Virus record (IMG/VR): IMGVR_UViG_3300007735_000795 | Span: 1-64,000 of that record | DNA from: a virus | Length of the DNA stretch: 64,000 nt | Strand: one strand, 5' to 3' | Notes under the pieces: model-generated | The model's input: only the letters and a program-made list of their open reading frames with translations | The model's database searches: none | Told to the model about the DNA's origin: nothing | Shown: positions 1 through 25,881 of the stretch, piece by piece | How the letters are laid out: every line of letters starts with the position of its first letter | Numbering within the stretch: position 1 is the first letter of the stretch | Position numbers and translations under genes: made by a program

Positions 1-967
1 CATTGTCTATCATAAACAGTGTTAATGATACTAATTTGTCTTTAAATTCAGGATTGTGTTCTAGTCCTGGTTTAGAAATGTTAGAAACAACAATTTTATC
101 TTTTTGTTTTTCAACTTTAAAATCAGAAGGTACTACATTTTTAATATGATCTTTGTAATAATCAACTCGAGTTGGTTCTGAAGACATTTTAATGTCTATG
201 TCTTGGTTTTGTAATGGTTCAAAGAAATTAGTTGTTTCTTTTTTAGGGGTATTGTTATGTCCACATTTGTGACACATAAACAAATCATCTCCTCCATCTT
301 TTATTTTCCAAGTCCAACCACAATTATCACAAACTATACTATCACCTTCAATTTTTTCTTCAAGAAAATTTGTTATTTCTCCTCCTTCTTCTATTGAAGG
401 ATTTAATATGTTGTATATTTCTTCTTTATCTGCTTCATCAATATCAGGTAAGTATTTAAAGAATTCTTCTTTATTATCTAACACTGCTCTAGCAGCTGTT
501 CCACTAATACCACCAGCTGTTACAATGTTAATAGGTTCAATATTTGTTTTACCTAAAGCAGACTTAGTACGTTTTTCAAAATCAACAAAATCTTCTGGTT
601 TATCTTCTCTAGAACCTAAAAACCATTTAATTTTAGCATCGGGTTTATCTTTAGCTAAAGAATAAATAGATGTAATTGGATTAGAAGATGGAATAATGTT
701 TACTATACTAGGTAAGTAGTTTTTATAAATATTCCAAATTGCTAGTGATTGTTCTTGAGTGATATCTGATCTACCGCCACCTGTACCTACATAAAGGTTA
801 AATTCGGTTAGTTGAGGATACATTTCTAAAGCTTTTCTAACAACTTCAAAATGACCTTTTGTTGGGGGTTGAAATCCACCTCCAAATACACCTACAACTT
901 TATTAGATTCAGGTATATCAGCTTCAGATAAAAATGGTGTTATGAGTGATTTTACTAATGATTTCAT
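1..967 (-). CDS. Nucleotidyltransferase of the NMN adenylyltransferase/cytidylyltransferase fold, with zinc finger; C-terminus outside window
   Basis: This frame is open from an ATG at 967 to the left edge, giving 322 residues of an incomplete protein. Residues 28-40 hold the nucleotide-binding motif of the HIGH superfamily (FGGGFQPPTKGHF, with T-x-G-H in place of H-x-G-H), and residues 154-160 hold ISGTAAR, matching the ISxTxxR signature of NMN/pantetheine adenylyltransferases. A four-cysteine zinc finger follows (CxxC at 213-216 and 232-235). The substrate cannot be read from the sequence; NMN is a guess from the family. The first 15 residues are amphipathic and end in L-S-E, resembling a capsid-targeting peptide. 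The start overlaps the stop of the upstream kinase gene by ATGA, so the two are probably translated together. Confidence 0.8.
   Translation of the reverse strand, partial: MKSLVKSLITPFLSEADIPESNKVVGVFGGGFQPPTKGHFEVVRKALEMYPQLTEFNLYVGTGGGRSDITQEQSLAIWNIYKNYLPSIVNIIPSSNPITSIYSLAKDKPDAKIKWFLGSREDKPEDFVDFEKRTKSALGKTNIEPINIVTAGGISGTAARAVLDNKEEFFKYLPDIDEADKEEIYNILNPSIEEGGEITNFLEEKIEGDSIVCDNCGWTWKIKDGGDDLFMCHKCGHNNTPKKETTNFFEPLQNQDIDIKMSSEPTRVDYYKDHIKNVVPSDFKVEKQKDKIVVSNISKPGLEHNPEFKDKLVSLTLFMIDN
765..765. other. No separate element at this position (see late-type box at 1765-1774)
   Basis: This single base marks nothing on its own and should be ignored; the late-type box belongs at 1765-1774. Confidence 0.01.
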
Positions 968-1761
968 CCAACAAATTTTTTAACTATATTAGGTAACTCT
1001 TTGCTGTCAACAGGATTTAAATTAGCTTGAATACTATCGTAAGTATCAGCTATTTTATCTATATTTTTATCTAAAGTAACTTTAGTTTTAGCCCTATCTT
1101 TTTCTCTTTTTTCTAATTCTTCAGGTGATAATCCTGCATCACTTTTTCTAAAGGTTGATTGAAATTGACCTGATGCTAATAAATCTGAGAAATATTCTTT
1201 TAGTTTACCTTGCTGGTAAGCTGTTTCAAAATTAGCTATTTCAGATTGTTCTTCTTCAGAGGAAGGTGTATTAACTAAAATAAAATTATCACCAAAAATG
1301 CGTTTGTAATCTTCTAACAAATTGTAAACATTAGCCCATGTCCCTAAAACACCAGCTGCAGGTACTTTACGTTCACGCTTATAGTTTCTTAAAAATGATA
1401 CTATAGGATGAGCATAAACCATTATCATCATAGTTTCATACCCTTTATCATTTAACATGCCTAACGTGGGTTGAAGAGTTGATAAGTTAGAAGCAGTAGT
1501 ATCATAAATAAGATTTTGTTGATTGTTAACAGCGTTAGGTAAATCTGTTTTTCTTATTTGTGATGATGCTGCTGATAAATTCCCATACATTGGAGAATTT
1601 TTATCTTCAACATATCTGTCTGCATTTAAATCAACAAAATCTTTAAGTATAGGTTGTAAAGACTTTAGCACTGTTGATTTGCCAACCGATGCACCACCAG
1701 CCATTATGATAGCTTTAGGGTTATTTATAACCTCTTTTAATAAATCAGTTAGTTTTATCAT
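964..1761 (-). CDS. P-loop kinase, zeta-toxin/polynucleotide-kinase-like
   Basis: A 265-residue protein with a clear Walker A motif (GGASVGKST, residues 22-30) right after a short N-terminal peptide, then a hydrophobic strand ending in YDTTAS and an Arg-rich lid (RNYKRERKVP). This arrangement is typical of zeta-toxin-like or polynucleotide-kinase-like P-loop enzymes; the substrate is not evident. The C-terminal third is charged and probably helical. The first ten residues, MIKLTDLLKE, are identical to those of the GNAT-like protein at 24993-25868 and end in L-K-E, like a cleavable capsid-targeting peptide. Two late-type boxes (ATATTTAT) lie just upstream, one only 3 nt from the start. It overlaps the next gene by ATGA. 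Confidence 0.75.
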   Translation of the reverse strand: MIKLTDLLKEVINNPKAIIMAGGASVGKSTVLKSLQPILKDFVDLNADRYVEDKNSPMYGNLSAASSQIRKTDLPNAVNNQQNLIYDTTASNLSTLQPTLGMLNDKGYETMMIMVYAHPIVSFLRNYKRERKVPAAGVLGTWANVYNLLEDYKRIFGDNFILVNTPSSEEEQSEIANFETAYQQGKLKEYFSDLLASGQFQSTFRKSDAGLSPEELEKREKDRAKTKVTLDKNIDKIADTYDSIQANLNPVDSKELPNIVKKFVG

Positions 1762-1764
1762 TCA

Positions 1765-1774
1765 CATAAATATA
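1765..1774 (-). promoter_or_regulatory. Late-type promoter box
   Basis: TATATTTATG on the coding strand, 3 nt upstream of the kinase start. It fits the ATATTTAT box seen before many virion and lysis genes, and no TTTG element stands 20 nt upstream. If it works as a -7 box the transcript is almost leaderless. A second copy lies at 1809-1816. Confidence 0.45.
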
Positions 1775-16543: not shown

Positions 16544-16948
16544 TTATAGAATAATATTAATTGTTTGAGCATTATTGTTTAAAACAGAATAATTTATAAG
16601 TAACTGTATAGCATTTTCCTCATAAGCCTGGGTTAAAGTTAATTGGTTTATTCTGACTGAAGGGAAGTATGTTTTAATATCATTGGTTAGTTTTATTTCT
16701 AAAGCATTCAATGTATTAGGAGTTATTTGTTCAAATAATTGTGCTCGTATGTTAGCCCCAAAATTGGGGTTTAAAACTCTTTCACCCGTATTAGTCAATA
16801 TATAATTAATTATATTTGATTTTATTTGGTCAAGAGTAGTATAAGTTGAATTAAATACTGAGTATTGGTTTGAAAAAGGAATAGACACCCCAACAGCCAC
16901 ACGTTGGTTTAAGTCTAATGGGTGTTGGTTTGGTATTCTATATGCCAT
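16544..16948 (-). CDS. Baseplate wedge protein, gp25-like
   Basis: At 134 residues this is nearly the length of T4 gp25 (132). It has the family motif T-G-E-R-V-L-N-P-N-F-G (about residues 53-63) preceded by a helix with I-K-S-N-I-I-N-Y-I-L. The family joins the tail sheath to the baseplate and is shared with type VI secretion systems. It overlaps the upstream small gene by one base and precedes the gp6-like gene by two bases. Confidence 0.92.
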   Translation of the reverse strand: MAYRIPNQHPLDLNQRVAVGVSIPFSNQYSVFNSTYTTLDQIKSNIINYILTNTGERVLNPNFGANIRAQLFEQITPNTLNALEIKLTNDIKTYFPSVRINQLTLTQAYEENAIQLLINYSVLNNNAQTINIIL

Positions 16949-17319
16949 TATTTATTACTCATTAATCCCATTATTTGGTTTAAACTTACTTCTCCACCAG
17001 GTAAACTTGAACCTTCACCTATTGTATTAACAGGAGGAGGAGTATATGCTGGTTGAGCATGTGATGAATTAGCAGTTATGGTAGCATCAAATTCACCTCC
17101 AATCATACTTCTTAAATTACGTTTAAGGTCATGGTTTACAGTAGAAGTATTAGGAGCAGCCATTACAGGTTGATTTAAGAATGGATTTGTTCCAGTATAT
17201 GTTTCTTGTACTATAGTTTTAGGTGATTTTACAGCTTCAAGAAGAATATCTTTTAATTCATCTTGAATTGCTTCACGAACTGCTTCTTTAATTAATTTTT
17301 TTAAAATGTCTAGTTTCAT
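16948..17319 (-). CDS. Structural-block protein with amphipathic N-terminal helix
   Basis: A 123-residue protein. The first 30 residues form a strongly amphipathic helix (M-K-L-D-I-L-K-K-L-I-K-E-A-V-R-E-A-I) and the rest is Pro-, Asn- and Gly-rich and probably disordered. The I-K-E at positions 10-12 also fits the L/I-x-E rule of prohead-protease cleavage, but the gene lies among baseplate genes, so this could be coincidence. A late-type box is seven bases upstream. No family is recognised. Confidence 0.6.
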   Translation of the reverse strand: MKLDILKKLIKEAVREAIQDELKDILLEAVKSPKTIVQETYTGTNPFLNQPVMAAPNTSTVNHDLKRNLRSMIGGEFDATITANSSHAQPAYTPPPVNTIGEGSSLPGGEVSLNQIMGLMSNK

Positions 17320-23356: not shown

Positions 23357-23548
23357 TTAGTCTTTCAAATTATCATACTTACAACACGATAAATAATATT
23401 CTACTATCTGTTGTTTAGTAATACCAACACGTTTGTTAGTATTTTCCAAAATAACCACCCACAATTCGTTTATGTGAGTGGTATTTGGAATGATTTTTAA
23501 CTCTTTAGTTATTAATTGTGCTAATTCGTCTTTGCTATTAAGCTGCAT
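23357..23548 (-). CDS. Small protein, unknown function
   Basis: A 63-residue reading from the ATG at 23548 (M-Q-L-N-S-K-D-E-L); in-frame ATGs at 23566 and 23578 overlap the DUF932 gene further. The product looks helical (E-L-A-Q-L-I-T-K-E-L and K-Q-Q-I-V-E-Y-Y-L). It overlaps the end of the DUF932 gene by 11 bases. No family is recognised. Confidence 0.5.
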   Translation of the reverse strand: MQLNSKDELAQLITKELKIIPNTTHINELWVVILENTNKRVGITKQQIVEYYLSCCKYDNLKD

Positions 23549-24341
23549 ATTCAACTGCAAGTTCATATAGCTTAGCATTCAAATCAAGGTCTTGTTTAAA
23601 GTTCTTAATTTTTCTTGCTTTACGCAACTTAGTGCCTGAGGTATATTCAAACATACCATGTACTAGTTTTTCTTGAACTACATTAAATACACTCCACAAG
23701 TCATTACCATTATCTTCAGGACGAGTTGGTGTAACCAATTCATTATAGTTAATAATAATATTTTGTAGTTGCTCAACACCAAAACGAATTTCAGCTGCTC
23801 TTCTAGCAAATTCAGTAATTTGTTCTTGACGAAGAGTTTTCTTTTTAAAACGATTCATTGATTCAACTGTCAATGGAAGTGACTGAACCATAGTATTAAT
23901 TACTCGTTGTAATTCTTCAAAACCATATCCGTAGTGACGAATCTTAAGATTTTCAAATTCCTTAGAACAAATCACAAGTCCATTTTCACAAACCAAACGG
24001 AACAAACCAGCAGTAAATGTAAATGCATTTTTACCATCATGGCTATTAGTTAGAAGAATCTGTGGGAACACATTATCACCATCTGTTCCTTCAATAAACA
24101 AATCATTGTTACGGAACACAACTAAGTGTTTTTGGTAACCATCACCTTTACGGGCACGTACTTCTTTTGCATCAACAACTCCCCAACCTAGTTTTTCCAT
24201 GTCCTGGACAATTTGTAGGGTTGAAATGTGAGCATACTTTTCACTAGTACCTGGAGCACCAGTAGTTGCAAAAATTGATTTTGCTTTTTCTTTAATTTCT
24301 GACTCTGTCAAAAATTTTGTTGTTTCTAAATTCAATGGCAT
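23538..24341 (-). CDS. DUF932 phage/plasmid protein
   Basis: A 267-residue protein with the signature of DUF932: L-L-T-N-S-H-D-G-K-N-A-F-T-F-T-A-G-L-F-R, then L-V-C-E-N-G-L-V-I (about residues 98-126), and a C-terminal helical region. The family is widespread in phages and plasmids and its function is unsettled. An early promoter at 24366-24397 lies directly upstream. Confidence 0.85.
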   Translation of the reverse strand: MPLNLETTKFLTESEIKEKAKSIFATTGAPGTSEKYAHISTLQIVQDMEKLGWGVVDAKEVRARKGDGYQKHLVVFRNNDLFIEGTDGDNVFPQILLTNSHDGKNAFTFTAGLFRLVCENGLVICSKEFENLKIRHYGYGFEELQRVINTMVQSLPLTVESMNRFKKKTLRQEQITEFARRAAEIRFGVEQLQNIIINYNELVTPTRPEDNGNDLWSVFNVVQEKLVHGMFEYTSGTKLRKARKIKNFKQDLDLNAKLYELAVEYAA

Positions 24342-24365
24342 AACTTTTATTTTTTTATTTATAAT

Positions 24366-24397
24366 TAAATATACGAAATTTCTCCTGTGAAGCCAAA
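24366..24397 (-). promoter_or_regulatory. Early promoter for DUF932 gene
   Basis: TTTG (24394-24397) and TATATTTA (24366-24373) are 20 nt apart on the coding strand, matching the Bacteroidota consensus. Confidence 0.8.
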
Positions 24398-24404
24398 TTT
24401 CCTG

Positions 24405-24710
24405 TTAAAGAAATTTTATCAAGTAACACATTCTATTCAACATGTCATGTTTCTGCATTCTTAAATCAATGCGATACGGTTCATGGTTAAGTGTTTCTTC
24501 CATTTCTTGAATTTTAATAGCCATGTCCTTTAGTTTTTCCACTTCAGAACCTTCAATTTCACCTTCCATTTTCATGTTTGGAAGAACAACATTAAGTGGC
24601 CTTTCGATTCGTTTACGTCCTCGTTTTTTTCCTTCACCTACAGGAATGTTAATAATTGTTTGTTCTTTTTTACCCGTTCCAGGTGGGCGTCCTCTACGTT
24701 TTTGTTCCAT
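24405..24710 (-). CDS. AT-hook DNA-binding protein
   Basis: I start at the ATG at 24710 (M-E-Q-K-R-R-G-R-P-P-G), preceded by the usual A-rich leader. The 101-residue product opens with an AT-hook (R-R-G-R-P-P) and a second basic patch (K-K-R-G-R-K-R), followed by a helical acidic region. AT-hooks also occur at 30077 and 31776, so minor-groove binding to AT-rich DNA is a theme of this early region. Confidence 0.65.
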   Translation of the reverse strand: MEQKRRGRPPGTGKKEQTIINIPVGEGKKRGRKRIERPLNVVLPNMKMEGEIEGSEVEKLKDMAIKIQEMEETLNHEPYRIDLRMQKHDMLNRMCYLIKFL

Positions 24711-24730
24711 AACTTTTATTTGTTTTTTAA

Positions 24731-24901
24731 TTATACAATAGCTGATGTGATAATCCAATAGATCAATACTTGAACAATGTATCCCCATTTTTGTTCCTTA
24801 AATGAAATACTTTCATTTTTCTTTTTGGCTTCAATTTGGATGTGAGACACAGCGCAATATCCAGTCCAAATATACGCTGCAATTGTAAGTGTTGTGTCCA
24901 T
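24731..24901 (-). CDS. Small membrane protein
   Basis: A 56-residue product from ATG at 24901 to TAA at 24731. It has an N-terminal hydrophobic stretch (L-T-I-A-A-Y-I-W-T-G-Y-C-A-V) and a C-terminal one (Y-I-V-Q-V-L-I-Y-W-I-I), separated by a basic K-K-K turn, as in a two-pass hairpin. An early promoter sits 20 bases upstream. The function is unknown. Confidence 0.6.
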   Translation of the reverse strand: MDTTLTIAAYIWTGYCAVSHIQIEAKKKNESISFKEQKWGYIVQVLIYWIITSAIV

Positions 24902-24921
24902 TTGCGTTTCTTATTTATACC

Positions 24922-24953
24922 TAAATATACGACAAATTTCCTGGGAAGCCAAA
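24922..24953 (-). promoter_or_regulatory. Early promoter with upstream TGTTCAC element
   Basis: TTTG (24950-24953), 20 nt, TATATTTA (24922-24929) on the coding strand. TGTTCAC stands eight bases upstream of TTTG (24962-24968), as at three other early promoters. Confidence 0.8.
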
Positions 24954-24992
24954 TAAGAGGCGTGAACAGTGCGCTTTTCCTGTAAAATTACA

Positions 24993-25868
24993 TTAAATAG
25001 ACAATGGAACCATTTTCTTTCCCACTACAAATACTAAATTTTTAGTACTAACCAATATTTTTTTAGGGTTTTGATTAGCCGGGAATATGGCTTCCATCAT
25101 ATCATCAAACAATAGATTATTTAAATTCTTACTTTGGTTTACTAAATTGATAAAACTTTTACTGTTTCCACTGTAAGAATAAATTCCATAATCACCATTA
25201 GCCAAAGATATACCGTCTAAGTAAGCCTTTAATTTATCCATTTGTTCTGTAGGAATATTGCTTGCCAAAAATGCTGATACAGCTGGGTTACCCATTAGTT
25301 TTTTATTTGAAGCATCTTCCAAAGTTATAGGTGCATAAAAAGAACCATCCACCTCTATCCCAAAAAAGTCAGCTACTGGGTAAATTTTACTTAACCACAA
25401 GTTATATGATCCTTCATATAATATTTTATCTGAAAATAAGTTACCATAGTGAACAAATATCATGTAATACATGGTTGAACCTATTCCTTTTCCTCTATAT
25501 AATGTACTAACATAACTTAAAACTACTTGTGCTCCTTCTATTTTATAAGGTTTATCAGAAGACCTATCAATCAAATCCATTTCTACACTTCCAACAATGT
25601 ATTGTCTCCAAGTTGTAGCATCAGGTTTTACTAACCATTTTGTTCGTTCAGTGGTTTGATTTGCTTCTATTAGTCTATAACCTTCTGCTTCAATTAATTC
25701 AGTGTATTTTCCTTCTATTAAACTTTCATCAACCACATCATCTAAATCTTCTTCAGCAATGTCAAAGTCAATAGCAAAGTAGTTATACATTATGTCATCA
25801 TTTATAACACCACGTAATTGACCCTTACGTAGGTCTAGTTCTTTGAGCAGATCAGTTAGTTTTATCAT
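24993..25868 (-). CDS. GNAT-like acetyltransferase with capsid-targeting-like N-terminus
   Basis: A 291-residue protein. The central segment V-V-L-S-Y-V-S-T-L-Y-R-G-K-G-I-G-S-T-M fits GNAT motif A, with R-G-K-G-I-G as the acetyl-CoA pyrophosphate loop. The first ten residues (MIKLTDLLKE) are identical to those of the kinase at 964-1761 and end in L-K-E, like a prohead-protease site. The gene lies in the early region, yet a late-type box (25874-25881) sits five bases before the start and no TTTG element is present. I infer a packaged, injected enzyme; its target is unknown. Confidence 0.68.
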   Translation of the reverse strand: MIKLTDLLKELDLRKGQLRGVINDDIMYNYFAIDFDIAEEDLDDVVDESLIEGKYTELIEAEGYRLIEANQTTERTKWLVKPDATTWRQYIVGSVEMDLIDRSSDKPYKIEGAQVVLSYVSTLYRGKGIGSTMYYMIFVHYGNLFSDKILYEGSYNLWLSKIYPVADFFGIEVDGSFYAPITLEDASNKKLMGNPAVSAFLASNIPTEQMDKLKAYLDGISLANGDYGIYSYSGNSKSFINLVNQSKNLNNLLFDDMMEAIFPANQNPKKILVSTKNLVFVVGKKMVPLSI

Positions 25869-25873
25869 GGTAA

Positions 25874-25881
25874 TAAATATT
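25874..25881 (-). promoter_or_regulatory. Late-type promoter box
   Basis: AATATTTA followed by T on the coding strand, directly before the GNAT-like gene. It is an isolated late-type signal among early promoters. Confidence 0.45.

Follow-up and report, generated by a model that had tools for sequence, protein, structure and literature searches.

Genes and Features at the Locus

The DNA analyzed here (the window) comprises bases 1-64000 of the linear 98,766-bp record IMGVR_UViG_3300007735_000795, which derives from an uncultivated T4-like phage, and carries two minus-strand genes, for a kinase (964-1761) and a GNAT-like protein (24993-25868), that lie 24 kb apart and open with the same decapeptide, MIKLTDLLKE, a candidate capsid targeting sequence. 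A scan of the whole record gives exactly two matches to this peptide (hereafter the tag), each at an initiator ATG, and 0 matches to the reversed control pattern. The initial annotation had described two proteins with identical first ten residues and unrelated bodies, which the whole-record scan, the coordinates and the strand bear out; the search for further copies that it proposed returned the two known genes and no others. The features of the two genes are as follows.

964..1731, minus strand: Zeta-toxin-like P-loop kinase body, residues 11-265 (Pfam PF06414)
1732..1761, minus strand: tag MIKLTDLLKE at the kinase N-terminus, proposed capsid targeting sequence, conserved in kinase homologues found by the body
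1766..1773, minus strand: late-type box ATATTTAT upstream of the kinase
24993..25838, minus strand: GNAT acetyltransferase body, residues 11-291 (assigned by motif, AlphaFold and Foldseek)
25839..25868, minus strand: tag MIKLTDLLKE at the N-terminus of the GNAT protein
25873..25880, minus strand: late-type box ATATTTAT before the GNAT gene, located in the early region

Both enzyme names given earlier hold. The kinase body matches the Pfam family Zeta_toxin (PF06414; 4.7e-12, 46.2 bits with a cut-off of 22.3) and has the P-loop GGASVGKST; it also matches phrog_2071 (ATPase), and a phmmer search against the PDB gave no match. The GNAT protein has no Pfam match, and its assignment comes from the conserved motif YVSxxYRGKGxG, the acetyl-CoA loop R-x-x-G-x-G and an AlphaFold model (pLDDT, the predicted local distance difference test, of 86) in which the body is confident, residues 1-20 are of low confidence and the tag region is disordered. 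Foldseek places GNATs at the top for this model with modest scores (probability up to 0.99, E 1.5e-3, low template modeling scores).

Spread and Conservation of the Tag

To judge the shared start against chance, N-termini were shuffled position-wise such that the residue composition of each position was kept. In the phage's own record, pairs identical at 8 or more of 9 residues occurred 0 times in 200 shuffles, compared with the one 9/9 pair observed. In a relative of 160,798 bp (G013), which also has a tagged kinase and a tagged GNAT protein, 25 pairs identical at 6 or more of 9 residues were observed vs. 0.34 expected, of which a few may be paralogues. A protein conserved between the two genomes (L004, record 88530-89048; G013 112718-113239) starts with MVTVEEVLKE and MVTVEQVLKE, respectively, and fits the shape of the tag, perhaps by chance.

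The tag is widespread among viruses. The peptide IKLTDLLKE occurs at 106 loci in IMG/VR, nearly all of them at an initiator Met; copies preceded by T (L005, L027, L047, L087, and L092) or by A (the L060 type) lack the start Met and were not counted. A second IMG/VR scan used the looser pattern MIKLxxLLKE. Among the matches listed, BLASTP comparison of the carriers after removal of the tag gives about 66 clusters at E 1e-4, a threshold that may separate distant relatives; a few of the clustered proteins are fragments. A single contig (L083) has four tagged genes within 12.7 kb, encoding a kinase, a HAD nucleotidase, a Cys-rich protein and one protein of unknown type. Bacterial and archaeal genomes totalling 257 Gb yield one match, on a phage-like contig whose other genes include some similar to those for terminase and portal in these phages. 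No published description of the tag was found in the literature searched.

Conservation acts on the peptide. Of the 30 bases that encode the tag, 5 differ between the two window copies, all synonymously, and the initial 18 are identical; across 85 exact copies (selected by peptide) the codons vary freely while residues 2-10 are fixed and the sequence becomes variable from residue 11 onward. As a control blind to the tag, kinase homologues were retrieved by the body alone. All close homologues start with M[IV][KR]L.[DQE]LL.E, with L4, L7, L8, and E10 unchanged and positions 5, 6, and 9 varying. The same search with the GNAT body found no relatives in IMG/VR, and the control is therefore limited to the kinase.

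Correspondence with T4 Propeptides

The starts of T4 proteins were taken from NC_000866: MKTYQEFIAE|A for the internal proteins IPII and IPIII, MELITELFDE|D for Alt and MAKINELLRE|S for gp24. The tag aligns with all of these without gaps, in the common form M-x-x-hydrophobic4-x-[E/D]6-hydrophobic7-hydrophobic8-x-E10. In IPIII, ten N-terminal residues suffice to package a foreign protein, with residues 4 and 7 governing targeting and residues 8 and 10 directing processing by the prohead protease gp21, which cuts after L/I-x-E (PMC9026906), and T4 gp24 loses exactly its first 10 residues (PMC9958956). The Alt sequence would likewise fit cutting at E10. It was proposed at the outset that the gp21 rule fits the shared tag, and this stands, since L8-K9-E10 satisfies the rule in a T4-like register; moreover, the residues kept in the kinase set are those with targeting or processing roles in T4.

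In comparison with the T4 capsid targeting sequences cut by gp21 (those of IPI, IPII, and IPIII and, by sequence, the Alt and gp24 propeptides), the tag is alike in its ten residues and its register (hydrophobic 4, 7, and 8; E10), in being an identical peptide on unrelated proteins, in predicted late-type expression and in the presence of a T4-type protease in the phage group. The residues themselves differ (IKLTDLLK here, KTYQEFIA in T4), the cargo here is spread over the many clusters counted above as opposed to a handful of proteins in T4 and includes enzymes unreported for T4 heads, and packaging and processing are predicted here from sequence. The prohead-protease propeptides of phiKZ-like phages (SPN3US and 201phi2-1) are likewise removed from head proteins by a relative of gp21 that cuts after Glu, but they are mostly long (111-254 residues, with two of 20-24) and follow an S/A-x-E rule, and a short tag shared by unrelated proteins is unreported there. 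Polyvalent proteins and phage-injected ADP-ribosyltransferase (ART) or GNAT effectors resemble the cargo in the kinds of domain (ART-PolyVal and GNAT) proposed to be injected with DNA; whereas there one large multidomain protein is found, here the proteins are mostly small and separate, each with its own N-terminal label.

Late-Type Boxes and Head Genes

The box ATATTTAT stands about 11 bases before the ATG of both tagged genes. In G013 the ratio of ATATTTAT to ATATTTA[non-T] is 17:1 before tail and head genes and 4:18 in the early region (Fisher p = 1e-6). The box positions together with this contrast confirm the claim that both tagged genes have late-type boxes directly upstream, one of them in the early region, and the promoter sequence suggests that the tagged genes are made late, with the head proteins. 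The early region has an element of its own, (GTCG/TGTT)ATATTTA followed by a non-T base, distinct from the late form ATATTTATAAT (window 24000-53000; G013 54000-82000).

The record is collinear with G013 over 23.9 to 123 kb of the latter and then ends, and the part of G013 that it is missing holds the portal, terminase, major capsid protein, scaffold, and protease genes. Among larger tag-bearing records the protease is found in 9/16, and in 8/8 of those with a Gp23 capsid gene. In these phages the capsid protein has a probable cut site, [LV]-x-E|[AS], at the position aligned with E65 of T4. Two records (G019 and L038) have, between the protease and scaffold genes, a gene for a tagged protein of 451-524 residues (451 in G019); at this position G013 has MNLQFLKMQKLAGLITESEYK, which is a second repeated start.

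The Nucleotidyltransferase and its Virion Relatives

A third enzyme, encoded next to the kinase, had been grouped with the two tagged proteins. Its features are given below.

2..967, minus strand: cytidylyltransferase-like nucleotidyltransferase with a zinc ribbon, cut off by the record end (phrog_3041)
923..967, minus strand: N-terminal leader MKSLVKSLITPFLSE of the nucleotidyltransferase, targeting-like but distinct from the tag

The protein opens MKSLVKSLITPFLSE|A, and its relatives have the leaders MNSLVKSLILPFLTE in G013 (ending PFLTE) and MNPISKELLRSFLTE in G022 (ending SFLTE). The proposal of a targeting-like start is thus upheld insofar as the leader ending is kept in relatives, but this leader, though related, is not the shared tag, and the tag proper is carried by two of the three enzymes. 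The window protein matches phrog_3041 (cytidyltransferase) at 3e-5, and the G013 orthologue matches PF01467 at 3.1e-4. In G013 the full-length protein (23951-25240) ends in a metallopeptidase-like HEMVHH region, with a sub-threshold match to the Pfam M91 “Effector protein” family.

Among T4-like phages of other hosts, kinase homologues open with short Glu-ending peptides (MKTFAELQE in Melnitz and MIPFILKE in HTVC008M), and in HTVC008M the gene after the kinase encodes a nucleotidyltransferase, as in the window. This protein has cyanophage homologues (T4-GC190) at E around 1e-50, with the starts MKSFSQFLTE in P-SSM2, MKKFSAFLTE in S-SSM5 and MKKFSAFLNE|A in S-SM1, all of the shape of the T4 internal proteins. 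T4-GC190 was detected in S-SM1 virions by mass spectrometry (PMC3037559), and S-CREM2 virions contain the cytidylyltransferase ORF154, with NMNAT-like proteins in three more cyanophages (PMC10665884). The window protein and T4-GC190 are alike in broad family, the latter being found in virions and having a T4-type decapeptide start; they differ in the other leader and the zinc ribbon of the window protein (and, in the G013 orthologue, the M91-like region).

Weighing the Capsid Targeting Interpretation

We assign a probability of about 0.78 to the tag being a capsid targeting sequence of the T4 type, as the initial annotation had suggested. This is supported by the positional match to T4, the unrelated carriers, the near absence of the tag from cellular genomes, conservation at the level of the peptide, the late-type boxes, the tagged gene between protease and scaffold in a related phage group, the gp21-type protease in all checked tag-bearing records with a Gp23 capsid gene, the virion location of relatives of the nucleotidyltransferase and the kinds of tagged cargo. 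The tagged enzymes would be produced late in infection alongside head proteins, and the amphipathic ten-residue peptide would bind the scaffold core during prohead formation such that the enzyme is enclosed. A gp21-type prohead protease would probably then cut after Glu10, leaving the enzyme free inside the maturing head, from which it could be ejected with the DNA to act on a new host immediately. Loading into the virion and injection with the DNA are probable because the tag closely resembles the T4 head-packing label and rides on dozens of unrelated proteins; for the three proteins of the window, we infer packaging, cutting, injection, and host targets, with injection expected to follow from packaging by analogy with T4.

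Several observations weigh against this interpretation. No Peptidase_S77 or gp21-type protease is found in the phage's own 98.8-kb record. This absence is accounted for by the record being a fragment without the whole head module, and the prohead protease expected from the first reading of the sequence, missing here, does appear in the corresponding part of G013 and in the relatives that have a head module. The residue following E10 in the tag copies is mostly E, I, V, or L, whereas the predicted capsid-protein sites of these phages and the T4 sites have A, S, or D after the cut, which makes cutting exactly at E10 uncertain. Some distant kinase homologues from the body search are without the tag, so the kinase can work untagged. 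Since close homologues keep the tag and some distant ones are without it, the tag is a module that is retained where it occurs but is not needed for the fold. For neither this phage nor any carrier of the tag did we find virion proteomics. The window nucleotidyltransferase has weak homology to the cyanophage proteins (3e-5 by profile, 0.006 at best pairwise), and the enzymes in cyanophage virions could be contaminants, according to the authors (PMC10665884).

The bulky or acidic residue after E10, unlike known gp21 sites, would also fit an uncut helix that docks cargo to the prohead core, as the cargo peptides of bacterial shells do, with the enzymes remaining tagged in the virion, and IPIII with Asp at position 10 is packaged yet unprocessed (PMC9026906). 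Pure docking has no obvious need for E10, which is nevertheless invariant in the close body-found homologues while position 9 drifts, and gp21-type proteases co-occur with the tag; we consider this alternative unlikely. It is far less probable that the peptide steers proteins to another partner in the infected cell, such as a phage-encoded GroEL. The phage does encode GroEL and GroES (record 71893-73809, L003), as do its relatives, and the T4 gp23 N-terminus targets GroEL according to the title of a study cited in PMC10052503. The T4 decapeptides that match in register are, however, propeptides for packaging or maturation, members of the nucleotidyltransferase family occur in virions, and small tagged proteins of about 80 residues have no obvious need of GroEL. 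A nucleic-acid feature (a translation start enhancer or recombination hot spot) encoding the same residues by chance has next to no probability, since despite the identical first 18 bases and the frequent gene exchange in such phages, codons vary freely around constant residues, the window copies differ at synonymous sites only and the T4 match exists at the peptide level only.

The capsid targeting mechanism itself has its precedent in T4. The novelty lies in the label, in the great breadth of its cargo with many enzymes, and in signs that one phage group has several labels in parallel. The T4 internal proteins were spotted by a shared leader, and IP1-3 proved to be injected and to inhibit type IV restriction enzymes (PMC12373910). 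If the logic of T4 holds, MIKLTDLLKE is a search key for injected effectors of phages that are mostly uncultivated. Dozens of unstudied proteins (most without a Pfam match), including zeta-like kinases, ADP-ribosyltransferases and an Acb1-like protein, would then be factors of host takeover or anti-defence in the first minutes of infection, and a genuine virion role would be supported for the puzzling nucleotidyltransferases of cyanophage particles.

Other Candidate Cargo and Parallel Repeated Starts

Most tagged proteins matched no family in the Pfam and PHROG scans. Those that could be placed include an ART-PolyVal protein (L147), a DarT-like ART by fold (L103, model pLDDT 69), a 2'-5' ligase/Acb1-like protein (L202, below cut-off), a HAD nucleotidase, and alpha/beta hydrolases (below cut-off). 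By analogy, the ART-PolyVal, Acb1-like and DarT-like cargo would be in keeping with T4 Alt and with injected anti-defence proteins.

Two further starts recur in this phage group. The second, F[LY]KMQKLAGLITES, stands at the beginning of ten unrelated proteins from nine loci (L003 record 71118-71600; G013 155607-156449 and 99795-100307). Scaffold proteins end in the same motif (FARMQRLAGL in G013, FARMQRLAGI in G015, and SRWQKLAGI in the cultured Flavobacterium phage vB_FspM_immuto_2-6A, hereafter immuto), which ties this class to the core. The third, FDLKKFLVENKLT, opens four immuto proteins (1803-2318, 103806-104354, 117631-118632, and 118632-118931) and one protein of the phage studied here (L003 record 76716-77003). 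Immuto is the nearest cultured relative, with a capsid protein 54% identical; it encodes a MIKLIDLLTE protein (24569-24994), a MISIYNILKE protein (103366-103806), the four FDLKKFLVENK proteins and a nucleotidyltransferase (107131-109854). We tentatively suggest, at odds slightly short of even, a general tag-addressed delivery in which the interchangeable labels MIKLTDLLKE, FLKMQKLAGLITES (the motif that also ends the scaffold) and FDLKKFLVENKLT would load many separate effectors into the head, such that the injected set could be read from sequence alone.

Further amphipathic starts of the form MKKSQLRQIIKEE... occur in 31 body families, and helices of the type MKxSQL[KR]Q[LI]I[KR]EE open many proteins (window 16948-17319; G013 113595-114470; L184). 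Because the MKKSQLRQIIKEE-type start also matches a baseplate-region gene (window 16948-17319) and large terminase proteins, it was not counted as a packaging tag. Large terminases likewise open with helices of the MKxSQL type, so that this class may be no packaging signal. The FLTE start of the gene at window 23538-24341 was rejected as a cut site, G013 having FLTA there. Finally, genes like those annotated in immuto as QueC, QueD, QueE, and GTP cyclohydrolase lie at L004 (record 81693-86178), a set that suggests 7-deazaguanine modification of the DNA.
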